Below, piece after piece: positions 3,010 through 29,898 of a stretch of DNA of 46,856 nucleotides (positions are counted from its first letter, which is position 1; every line of letters starts with the position of its first letter). The stretch covers positions 1-46,856 of the forward strand of contig JAFGGQ010000074.1 in NCBI GenBank assembly GCA_016930435.1. Direction: 5' to 3'. Position numbers and translations under genes: made by a program. The DNA comes from a bacterium (GTDB lineage: Bacteria > UBP14 > UBA6098 > JAFGQG01). The notes beneath the pieces are model-generated. The model saw only the letters and a list, made by a program, of their open reading frames with translations. It made no database searches and had not been told where the DNA came from.

Positions 3010-6000
3010 ATGAGTAAAAGACGTCTGTTTTACATCCTCTCCTTTATGCTAGTGGGCTTGCTTACTTCGTTATGGGGAGCCTCTAGCTGGACTGTAGATA
3101 CTCAGACAGACTGGAATACCGGTTACTTCTGGGGCATCCAGAGTTACCGTAGTCCCGGTGATGCTTTTCCAGGAGTAAATGAGGGTCAAATGAACCAGGT
3201 AGGCTACTGGCATTTTGACAATCTCGTTGGCAATACCGCTGATGCATCAGGGAATGGACATACCGCTGTGCCTTATGGTACTATTACCAGGGGAGAACCC
3301 GGTGTTCGGGGTAGCGGTTGCTTCTATTATGATGCAATAAACGACTTCGTGAAAGTATCTGATGCCAGCGACCTGGATAACTCCAAGGAAATGACCTGGC
3401 TATTCTGGATAAACTTAGATACCCTTACCGGAGACCCACAGGCGGTTCTTTCCAAACGGGATACTATAGACGTCAATGAGGCCTATTGCTTCGCCGTCTG
3501 GAACGGTGACCGCATGTTCATCGATATCGAATCCTCCGACGACCGCTTCTGGACTAACACCGTCTTCAACCAGGACCAATGGTATCACGTAGCCATCGTT
3601 TTCGACGGAAACGAGATTGCTGCTAACCGGGTTAAGGTCTATATCAATGGTGTGCTGGATGTCATCGGCGCTGAAACCGCAGATTCCCTGGCCAATCATC
3701 CATCCCATCTGTTTTTCGGAAGAATGGGCCCTACCGACCCACGGTTGTTTAATGGTTGGATAGATGAGGTGATGATCTATAATAGCGCTTTCTCGCCAAT
3801 TTTGGTTGCCAATCATTACAATATACCTTTTTATCAGACTGGTGTACATGACTTTGGAGCACCCCTGGTAGATTGGGATTCCCTCATCGTTGATATCTCA
3901 TTAGCCAATCCTGGCGATACTGTATTCGCGGCAGTATTGGTTAGTGATAATAACGTTACCCTTAAAGATGCAGATACCATACCCATCTTTATGAACGGGA
4001 GAAACAGCTTCCCGCTGCCAACCCTGGATAATTCACGATTTATGATTGTTGCTTTTTTATTCAATCTTGTTGATCCACCCGATATTGGCGGGAACAACCC
4101 GATATTGCACGATTTCACTATAATGCCCGTTGCCTCAGATTTCACTATACTTGATATCTGGTCTGACCTTCCCTATACCGATGGAGCTGCATTCGATTAT
4201 GAAGCCAACTGGCGCCAGGAACACAACGTTTATGTAGAGCTGGTTAACGATGGCCCTTATCCGGTTAATAACCTGTTTATGTACCTCAACAGCTTCCACA
4301 CCTGCGGCTCCCGGATCGAGTTTGAAAATATAGCCAGTATCGCCGTTGGGGAAACAGTTTTAGTGGTATTTACCATCTCAGAGCCTTCCTGCACCGGCCT
4401 GGATTCAATGTATATCGATTTCGGGGCAACCTGGATGGGTTATGACCATATTAACGTGGCCTCATTAACAGGTGATAACGACCTCATGATATGGGTGGAA
4501 CAGGAAGCCCACGTGATAATCGAAACCACATTCGTTGATCCGGCTACCGCGCCTTATGCACCATTCGTTACCCGCACACAGGACTTCGATATAATCGTGG
4601 TGGTCTCGAACTCCGGAGAAGAGAATGTCAGCTCCCTGGGCATAGAACTGACCTCCTCCAGCATCTGGGGTATCGCATCTAATATTCTCCTTCCGGTTCA
4701 GTATGTCTATGATCTGGATGGCGGAGAAACGGATACCCTGGTCTATAGTATCATTGCCGACGATGCTATCGGAGGAATGCTGGGTAATGATGAGATGTTC
4801 GAAGCCTGGGTTTATTATTCACGGGGGCAGAATACTCAGCTTCCCGTTGATTCCATATACTACTGGGATAACTTTGAACTGATTGACATTCAGAATCCAC
4901 CTTCTCTGACCATACTGGATATTTATGCTCAGGGCGGATTATCCCCTTACAATACCTGGCTGAATAGCTGGAACACCGTTAATGTGGACGTGGTTATCTC
5001 CAACGCTTTTGGTGATTATGCTATCGCTGATTTCTTTGATATCTATCGCTCCGTGCTGACCATCTGGTCTTCCGAAGTACTTGGCATTGGAGGCATAGAG
5101 GCTCCTTCAGCGGCATTTCTTACCCTACCCGCCGGGGCAACCGACACACTGACCTTTACCCTCTGGGCAATCGGACCTACCGAGCAGACTGTAGTCGATG
5201 TATGCGATACTACACACTACCATGACGGTAACTGGGCTTCTCAGGTCGAACCGGTTGCTTCTCCGGTCTGGGCTTGCTTCGATAATATATTTAATATCGA
5301 CGTGATAGAGCCTATCTCAGAGATCATCTGGCCTATCGCCGGAATGCCATGGCACTGCGATTCCATCGTGATCCAAGCCCATGATAACTACTCCGGCGTG
5401 GATTCGGTCATGATCTACCTGATGAGAACCGATGGCCGTTACTGGGATGGGGTTTGCTGTTGGACATGGACTCCTACTTTCTTCTACGCTACTTACCGCC
5501 CCGCATCTAACGATTGGGTGGTTTACCTGCCCATCTGCCCGGATGGTTCTACTACCGAAAATTACAATATTTATTCGCAAGCCGTTGACGTTGCAGGCAA
5601 CTGGGAACAATCCCCCTATCGTGTGCCTCACGGGGACTTCGCCTGGGTACATATCGTGGAAATGTGGTCCAGCCTGCCCTGGCAAAATTGCGATACATGC
5701 TATGACTATAGGGTAGAATGGGATTACGAGGCTGATTGGAATCAGGCGCATTATTGTTCCGTGCTAATCTGGAACTCCAACCCTTGGCCCTGCTATGATG
5801 TGGAGATCAACCTATATTCTATCTGGATGAATACTGCGATTACTACCCCATATATAATCCATTACCTCCCTGCCGATGCCGCAGTATGGGCATACTTCGA
5901 TGTAATTGAAGTGCCATCCTCGGTAAAGGATTCTATCTACGCCCACATCACCGGTGGCATCGACTCCCTCTATATGGAAAGGGTGGCTGAACAGATCACC

Positions 6001-26830: not shown

Positions 26831-26995
26831 CTATTCGCTTAATGCCCTCTTAAAATGTTCACAGGTACCGTACTTGTCCACGATTACCTTTTTAAGGTTG
26901 CATAATAATCCACCGGTCTTGGGACATATAGCACGTGTGGAAATAAATTCACTGTGCTGACATAACAAACAATATTTAGGTTTTCCTTTTTCCAT
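26831..26995 (-). CDS. small cysteine-rich (zinc-finger-like) protein
   Basis: A 54-residue ORF, translated here by hand. It has Cys9 and Cys12 in 'YCLLCQ', Cys24 in 'AICPKTGG', Cys32 in 'LLCNLKK' and Cys45 in 'YGTCEHF'. Such spacing suggests a bound zinc ion or, less likely, an iron-sulfur cluster. It overlaps the last 20 bp of ddl in another frame, which suggests translational coupling, and no separate Shine-Dalgarno is obvious. The basic C-terminus (HFKRA) would suit nucleic-acid binding. No family name can be given. The regular Cys pattern is the main reason to believe it is a gene. Confidence 0.6.
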   Translation of the reverse strand: MEKGKPKYCLLCQHSEFISTRAICPKTGGLLCNLKKVIVDKYGTCEHFKRALSE

Positions 26996-27905
26996 GTGCT
27001 AAGTTCAGAATGGTATCTATCAACTGGTCGAAATCAATCCCCTTTGCCCGGGCGGCCATAGGCACCAGGGAGAGTTCGGTCATACCAGGCAGGGTATTTA
27101 CCTCCAGACAGTAACAATTCTCCCCGTCAAAGCGGAAATCTGCCCGGCCATAGCCCGAGCAGCCAATGGCCTTAAAAGCCTTTCGACCCATATACTGCAA
27201 TTTTTCCCGAACTGCGTTATCGATCTCCGCAGGGCAGATATACCGGGACCCTCCCTTGGTGTATTTACAGGTATAATCATAGATCCCGTGCGAGGGTATG
27301 ATCTCCACAACCGGAAGGATCTGGTCACCAAGAAAACTGATTGTAAATTCCCGTCCGGGAATGAATTTTTCGATGAGTATATCATCATCATATTTAAAAG
27401 CCTCGACGATACCCCCTTCCAGGAACCCGGAGGATTCAATTACATTGATACCAACAGTAGAGCCCTGAGAAGAGGGTTTTACTACAACAGGGTAACAGAA
27501 AGAATCCCGGATACTTTGGTCAATTACCTCAAATGAAGGGCATTCCCAACGGTGAAGCTCCATGCCCGGAGGTACGGCTATGCCCTCGGAAGTAAACAGC
27601 TTTCGGGAGATAATCTTGTTCATTCCTATGGCGGAGGTTAGTGGCCCCGAACCGGTATATGGTACCCCAAGCATATCAAGCACCGATTGTACATGACCAT
27701 CCTCGCCGAGAGTCCCGTGATACGCAATAAATACAACCTCAAATTCCATTAACTCCTGGCTCTTTGTGATCAATTCCAACTCGTTCCAGACCAGTTCGGA
27801 AGGGCTATGTTTTAAACGCTTAAGTGATGATACAATAGCTTTACCCGTTTCCAGTGATATCTCTCTCTCGGATGAAGTGCCACCCATCAGAACCCCTATT
27901 TTCAT
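26976..27905 (-). CDS. ddl: D-alanine--D-alanine ligase
   Basis: ATP-dependent ligase making D-Ala-D-Ala for peptidoglycan. The 309-residue ATP-grasp protein starts 'MKIGVLMGGTSSEREISLETG' and has 'YHGTLGEDGHVQSVLDMLGVPYTGSG' (in two parts), 'PVVVKPSSQGSTVG', 'EKFIPGREFT', 'GYGRADFRFD' and 'CLEVNTLPGMTELSLVP'. These are the nucleotide, metal and substrate motifs of DdlB-type enzymes. AAGGAG lies 13 nt before the ATG, a little far. It is flanked on the same strand by two tiny cysteine-rich ORFs. The mur genes often near ddl are not in the window. Confidence 0.95.
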   Translation of the reverse strand: MKIGVLMGGTSSEREISLETGKAIVSSLKRLKHSPSELVWNELELITKSQELMEFEVVFIAYHGTLGEDGHVQSVLDMLGVPYTGSGPLTSAIGMNKIISRKLFTSEGIAVPPGMELHRWECPSFEVIDQSIRDSFCYPVVVKPSSQGSTVGINVIESSGFLEGGIVEAFKYDDDILIEKFIPGREFTISFLGDQILPVVEIIPSHGIYDYTCKYTKGGSRYICPAEIDNAVREKLQYMGRKAFKAIGCSGYGRADFRFDGENCYCLEVNTLPGMTELSLVPMAARAKGIDFDQLIDTILNLAHGKRKT

Positions 27906-28005
27906 AATAAGTACGGTTCTCCTTCCCCAGGCATTATTATTCTCCCAGGCTTGAATCCAATTCCATTATCTGACGGTTTTTCCAACGCCCCATTATCTCA
28001 CGCTA

Positions 28006-28164
28006 TTAAACTATAATCTCCTGCAGATGCATACATTTATCAGAACATTGAAGGTCTTCGCCACGGGCTTCTGCGCAACAGCGATTGCAGAGATGGCAAT
28101 TCAAAACAGGACAAAATCACTTAGCCTTTTTACTACAGTGGCCGCATTTTTGTTTATCTGTCAT
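28006..28164 (-). pseudogene. small cysteine-rich ORF interrupted by in-frame TGA
   Basis: Read on the minus strand from ATG at 28164: 15 codons (MTDKQKCGHCSKKAK), a TGA at 28119-28117, then 36 codons in the same frame to TAA at 28008-28006. The part after TGA reads 'FCPVLNCHLCNRCCAEARG' and continues with two more Cys, then 'MHLQ'. The pattern CxxC...CP...LCxxCC...R...C...C resembles small zinc-binding proteins in which the stop position would hold Arg or Lys (TGA is one change from CGA or AGA). TGA is an ordinary stop elsewhere here, for example in purQ. A nonsense mutation or sequencing error is most likely; selenocysteine is possible but no good SECIS fold was seen. Confidence 0.5.
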
Positions 28165-28223: not shown

Positions 28224-29783
28224 TTATTTTAAATATATTATTTTTTTACCATGGTAAAGGTTTTCCTGGTCAGCTAAATTTAAAAAATATATACCTGCTC
28301 CGATTTCCCTTTGAGCGGATTGAACTGCTTCCCAGCGGATCAAGCCGCGGGATTCTTTGAGTTCCCATTGATTAACCAATGCACCGCGAATATCCCGTAC
28401 TTCCAGAATTGCACCGGACTGGCCATTATATACAAGAGCGTATCGTATATTGATCATTTGATTGAAGGGATTGGGGTATGCGTTCAGTGTAATCTGGTTG
28501 GGCAATCCGGGTCCGGTTTCCGGAATACCTACCCAGCTTAAATCAACAGAGATACTGGTGCGCATGCTATCCCTCACCTCAACGATAAGGGTTTCCGGCC
28601 GGTATTCATCGCAACTTACGAGAAGTGTGTAGGTTCCGGGTCTCAAAAGGCGGAAAAAACTACCGTATGTAGAGTCGCTAAATCTTGGCGATATTTCGGG
28701 CGCGGTGGCTTCCAGGATTTCGATCTGAGCCACCAGAGGCTCTTCGGAAATGCTGTCGAAGACGTGGCCCCAGATCCCCGCTCCCAGTGTTCGGTCGAAC
28801 AGGTACATCAAGCCATTGAGCTGATTGGTGGTAGCGGCTTCCAGGCGCCGTGCTTCCGGAATGGTACAGGTATCAATCTCCACGATATAAGCCATAGTCC
28901 CAAGCCGGCAATATAACCAATCGCTGGCGTTACCGTTGGGGTAAAGACTTACCCAGGTATCATATACCCCAATTTCTCCAACCCTGTGAATATTCCCGGC
29001 AAGCCCTTCAGCAATAAGATAGATGGTGTAATAATCGGGGGGGAAAGTCCCGCGCCAATTGTAGGGGTAAATCACCTTTTCATTGTAATACCCCGAGCCG
29101 GAGGAATGATAGAAAATAGAGGAAAGGAATTTTTCCCGGGATGCTAATTTTTGGATCGCCCTAACCTCATTTTCACTTGCTGCATAGGGGCCTCGGTATT
29201 GATATGAAATCATGGACGGTTCCCCATCCTCCCAATTGATATCGAAGTTACGGTTGAGGTCAACTCCGTCTGAATCCCCGCCATCGCCCGGCGTAAAGTC
29301 GAAAATACCATTAAGATTGTTGTCCCGCTTATTTTTACGGTAAGTAATATCAAGGCCCTCCGTCACTACGTTATGGCCCTCCGGATTTACGACCGGGATC
29401 ACCCAGATCTCCAGGGAATCCACCCATCGGGTAACACGAGCATTGCTTCCGTAAAGTGAAGTTAAATAGTCCATGAGGTGCACGCAGACTTCAGTCGATA
29501 CTAATTCCTCTGCGTGAATGCAGCCGGTAATCAGGACCGCTGGTTCGTCTTCCTGGCTATCCGCATTATCGGAGATCCTGACTGCCCAAATGGGGATTGA
29601 ATCACGGGTACTCACGGTAAGGCTCTCGGCATAAAAGATGTCCGGATAGATTGCTCTGTAGTAATCCATCAGCTCCAGTATTTCGTTATAATCGTGATAA
29701 GCGCTATCAGGGGGTTCCTGAGAGAATCCCAAAGCGTTGAATATAAAGATAAAAAACAGGGTTAATATTTCTCTGAATTTCAT
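28224..29783 (-). CDS. exported M14 zinc carboxypeptidase with T9SS sorting domain
   Basis: A 519-residue secreted metallocarboxypeptidase. The ATG at 29783 follows GGAGG by 7 nt and starts a signal peptide ('MKFREILTLFFIFIFNALGF', cut near 'SQ'). Zinc ligands are His90 and Glu93 in 'GCIHAEELVSTE' and His226 in 'IFYHSSGSGY'. 'GVDLNRNFDINW' is the substrate-binding loop and Glu302 in 'AYIVEIDTC' is the expected catalytic Glu. A carboxypeptidase regulatory-like beta domain follows ('GAGIWGHVFDSIS', 'LRPGTYTLLVSCDEY'), then a sorting domain with 'AYPNPFNQM' ending in lysine. It probably trims peptides outside the cell for uptake; the substrate is unknown. Confidence 0.92.
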   Translation of the reverse strand: MKFREILTLFFIFIFNALGFSQEPPDSAYHDYNEILELMDYYRAIYPDIFYAESLTVSTRDSIPIWAVRISDNADSQEDEPAVLITGCIHAEELVSTEVCVHLMDYLTSLYGSNARVTRWVDSLEIWVIPVVNPEGHNVVTEGLDITYRKNKRDNNLNGIFDFTPGDGGDSDGVDLNRNFDINWEDGEPSMISYQYRGPYAASENEVRAIQKLASREKFLSSIFYHSSGSGYYNEKVIYPYNWRGTFPPDYYTIYLIAEGLAGNIHRVGEIGVYDTWVSLYPNGNASDWLYCRLGTMAYIVEIDTCTIPEARRLEAATTNQLNGLMYLFDRTLGAGIWGHVFDSISEEPLVAQIEILEATAPEISPRFSDSTYGSFFRLLRPGTYTLLVSCDEYRPETLIVEVRDSMRTSISVDLSWVGIPETGPGLPNQITLNAYPNPFNQMINIRYALVYNGQSGAILEVRDIRGALVNQWELKESRGLIRWEAVQSAQREIGAGIYFLNLADQENLYHGKKIIYLK

Positions 29784-29898
29784 CAAGTAGCCTCCTGCAT
29801 TTTCGCCATAGTAATATATAATACTATATAGCAAAAATATGCAAGCAGTTTTTTGGGACTGCATTTAATGAACAGGGCTTTATGGAATGTAAAACCAG

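Follow-up and report, generated by a model that had tools for sequence, protein, structure and literature searches.

A probable pseudogene of an eight-cysteine zinc-finger-like protein between an M14-type peptidase gene and ddl in a UBP14 bacterium

RESULTS

Organization of the locus

The window, that is, the whole stretch of 46,856 nucleotides that was analysed (contig JAFGGQ010000074.1), carries on its minus strand a short cysteine-rich reading frame located between two intact genes. The upstream neighbour (28224..29864, minus strand) encodes a protein with a C-terminal sorting-type domain, which from its sequence is a putative M14-type zinc carboxypeptidase-like protein. The downstream neighbour (26976..27905, minus strand) is presumably ddl, encoding a D-alanine-D-alanine ligase-like protein, a name adopted from the first-pass annotation and the sequence. 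Re-reading of the sequence confirmed the coordinates and frame originally assigned to the cysteine-rich element (28006-28164, minus strand). It opens with an ATG (28164-28162) and comprises fifteen sense codons, MTDKQKCGHCSKKAK, a single in-frame TGA at codon 16 (28117..28119), 36 further sense codons, FCPVLNCHLCNRCCAEARGEDLQCSDKCMHLQEIIV, and a TAA (28006-28008). The TGA separates the halves of a zinc-finger-like N-terminal domain remnant (28009..28164, minus strand; CxxC...CP...CxxCC...R...C...C). The interrupted frame is single-copy in its own genome (2.85 Mb, 180 contigs, 90% complete). An in-frame start within the second half was considered and rejected, the sole candidate being a TTG past the CP motif for which a ribosome site is not visible.

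A second cysteine-rich mini-gene of 54 codons (26831-26995, minus strand), MEKGKPKYCLLCQHSEFISTRAICPKTGGLLCNLKKVIVDKYGTCEHFKRALSE, lies between ddl and ssb. Since it is intact and conserved in place in a genome of the same family (58% identity, E = 3.7e-14), it probably encodes a real small zinc-binding-type protein.

A syntenic, intact orthologue in a genome of the same family

A search for orthologues, proposed in the first-pass annotation, led to an intact frame of 228 codons, beginning with MGKLVCSKCGKKAKFYCPVLEKHLCSMCCAVLRKSQIKCSIDCLHFAEV, in the metagenome-assembled genome bacterium isolate Zod_Metabat.733 of the same family (JAFGQG010000081.1; L055, positions 5001-5687). There, the gene order is mfd-like, M14 peptidase, the 228-codon Cys gene, ddl, a small Cys-rich frame, ssb and ptsI-like, and the order is identical in the window. 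Both neighbours are thus syntenic, with ddl 58% identical between the two genomes. The Cys gene starts 60 bp past the peptidase gene in the window versus 57 bp in the same-family genome, where its stop codon overlaps the ddl start.

When the TGA is read through, the resulting 52-residue peptide is 49% identical to the intact frame (E = 1.1e-10) over an alignment that spans both halves. The eight cysteine columns are invariant in the alignment of homologues, the window sequence included. The original judgement that the cysteine pattern on both sides of the stop is not due to chance is therefore well founded; it had been said that a second half without conservation in relatives would speak against it, and the second half is homologous to real proteins. 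In pairwise counts between the window and this one genome, differences fall at codon positions 1, 2 and 3 in 24, 15 and 32 of 47 codons, respectively, the third position being the most affected, and ddl displays a similar pattern (106, 63 and 201 of 310). Accordingly, the two halves formed a single coding frame during most of the period that followed the divergence of the two lineages. The remaining matches of the read-through peptide had weak E-values and were set aside, being mostly in other frames or in unrelated sequence. A scan of genome contigs with the peptide found no relatives, and a scan with the orthologue returned its own record only.

Most of the gene is absent from the window

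The description of the element as a self-contained mini-gene is not tenable, as the protein of its relatives has about 200 amino acids or more with the domain at its N-terminus, and the interrupted frame corresponds to only the N-terminal fifth of the 228-codon gene. From the start codon to the ddl-overlapping stop we counted 263 nt in the window versus 687 nt in the same-family genome. The net loss of 424 nt is not a multiple of three, so that the frame is shifted, and it covers nearly everything beyond the zinc domain. A helical body of ∼150 residues is expected after the domain; it is absent, just 104 nt separating the domain TAA from the ddl overlap. The full orthologue, searched against the window's own genome (90% complete), matched this place only, with three stops. 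As there is no second match, the body has not been relocated within the sequenced part of the genome.

At 27902..27994 on the minus strand, in a frame other than that of the zinc-finger part, the sequence reads DNGALEKPSDNGIGFKPGRIIMPGEGEPYLL, followed by a stop, and is probably what is left of the C-terminal tail. This stop shares an ATGA with the start of ddl, an overlap also seen in the intact orthologue. Within it, GRIIMPGEGE aligns with GNIIAPSRGD close to the orthologue's end, and other family members end with similar short motifs (SRLIIPAP, SSLIYPKG). The alignment with the orthologue tail scores 28.0 on a bits-scale BLOSUM measure, a value reached by 41 of 2000 shuffles, and the score summed over nine tails was reached by 66 of 2000 resampled DNAs. 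This candidate tail is suggestive of an internal deletion.

Two imperfect 18-bp direct copies, CCATTATCTGACGGTTTT and CCATTATCTCACGCTATT, lie 27 bp apart at 27963-28007 and coincide with the place of the missing body. They could be a deletion scar or a product of chance.

There is one intact syntenic orthologue, and whether the long form is the derived one rests on more distant homologues. In other lineages, these more remote homologues are complete, with ∼200 residues or more, which points to the long form as ancestral and to the window copy as shortened.

The TGA codon and the decoding machinery

At the site of the TGA, intact homologues have Arg in most cases, Phe in the orthologue, or Asn, and Cys in none. 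A search of the window's own genome (90% complete) and of the same-family genome for selA found it in neither. Searches for the other components of selenocysteine incorporation yielded matches below the cut-off only: for selB, the best one in the window's own genome has the sequence of translation factor IF-2, for selD it has a ThiL-like sequence, and for tRNA-Sec it is Ser, Leu and Trp tRNAs that score best, with no UCA anticodon among those inspected. The anticodon of the tRNA-Trp is CCA, as usual. A 66-nt segment that surrounds and follows the TGA forms no stable fold (z = +1.04), 171 of 200 shuffles folding at least as well, in agreement with the doubt already expressed about the weak hairpin as a SECIS element.

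DISCUSSION

Gene decay and its alternatives

The locus is most probably a pseudogene, what remains of the 5′ part of a gene that encoded an eight-Cys zinc-finger-like protein of about 228 residues located between the M14 peptidase gene and ddl. The options listed by the first-pass annotation were a nonsense mutation, a sequencing or assembly error, selenocysteine and regulated read-through, and the first of these fits best: an intact orthologue is in place elsewhere, and here at least one disabling change is present, namely the TGA together with the missing body. That a relative retains an intact copy in the corresponding position argues for ordinary gene decay and against selenocysteine or recoding. 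In this lineage, the gene would have gained a nonsense codon at codon 16 and lost a net ∼424 bp, with the frame altered, so that a domain remnant and a short tail piece persist, and we infer that it has ceased to function. Such gene decay is already well known. Two observations do not sit easily with a pseudogene. That all eight cysteines survive, in a frame open save for one stop, would be unexpected in an old pseudogene, and the match of the tail remnant is of weak significance. The retention of the cysteines suggests that the decay was fairly recent.

Were the TGA alone an assembly or sequencing error, the real gene would be a shortened but intact 52-residue zinc-finger protein. All eight cysteines are kept, the stop is single, the TAA follows soon past the last cysteine, and the codon-position pattern resembles that of a constrained gene. 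However, the body is missing independently of the TGA, so that the gene is damaged or remodelled in any case; correction of the TGA would leave a short intact zinc-domain peptide with the protein body still missing. Moreover, the homologues of other lineages are all longer, and GC3 in the interrupted frame is lower (0.37 versus 0.47-0.62, for just 52 codons). We therefore regard such an error as an unlikely account of the locus. A stop that is real yet passed by the ribosome, through programmed or leaky read-through giving a functional zinc mini-protein, would agree with the conservation of the codons past the TGA, but the TGA itself is not conserved in relatives, no structure follows it and the orthologue is a long protein. 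Regulated read-through also lacks support, since the remainder of the gene is absent and the tail remnant lies in another frame, and we consider a functional read-through product very improbable. Equally improbable is a micro-gene remodelled rather than dead, cut down to a zinc mini-protein of 52 residues that would still be produced through leaky reading of the TGA.

The position of the TGA within a cysteine-rich domain, with conserved sequence on both sides, is what could recommend selenocysteine. Against this stand the absence of selA from the 90% complete genome and from that of the same family, the best matches for selB, selD and tRNA-Sec, all below the cut-off, the Arg, Phe or Asn of the homologues where Cys would be looked for, and a fold past the TGA no stabler than that of shuffled sequences, and decoding as selenocysteine is thus extremely improbable. 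Nothing besides codon 16 itself favours a reassignment of TGA in this organism, for instance to Trp or Gly. TGA is an ordinary stop that ends 7 of the 25 window genes (the long ones have no TGA inside them, as follows from the use of the standard code), and with the ordinary anticodon of the tRNA-Trp this makes reassignment next to inconceivable.

The significance of this probable pseudogene is small. It illustrates how a stop within a cysteine-rich frame can be mistaken for a sign of a selenoprotein, a question that is settled by an intact orthologue with conserved neighbours. What interest is left concerns an uncharacterised zinc-domain family.

Comparison with related proteins and known zinc domains

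No match to the read-through peptide was found in Pfam and NCBIfam, and those to intact homologues were all below the cut-off. The latter bear a faint likeness in cysteine spacing to the B-box and ArfGAP zinc fingers (PF00643 and PF01412; E 0.17-0.41); membership was rejected, as the scores are far under the curated cut-offs. Nothing significant emerged from a profile search of the PDB (best E 0.17), and the AlphaFold2 model predicted from the orthologue sequence alone (mean pLDDT 38.7) was too poor for a fold search. From its cysteine pattern, the intact protein presumably binds zinc.

The Zod_Metabat.733 orthologue resembles the window copy in its neighbours on both sides, its eight-Cys N-terminal domain, its start and its ddl-overlapping stop. 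It differs in its 228 uninterrupted codons and in the Phe at the TGA position, whereas the window copy lacks everything past residue ∼50, save possibly the final few residues. More widely, both belong with an unnamed, scattered bacterial family of ∼200-residue proteins with an N-terminal CxxC-x(7-8)-C-x(7-8)-CxxCC...C-x3-C domain (G042, G052, G093, L006, L057, L058, L060 and others), which is without a Pfam or NCBIfam model and may merit a family entry. A short C-terminal motif like SRLIIP is a trait of this family. The window copy has all eight cysteines, R33 and the CP/CK..L motif in common with these proteins; unlike it, they are full-length, with an open reading frame that runs uninterrupted across the domain and Arg where the window copy has the TGA of codon 16.
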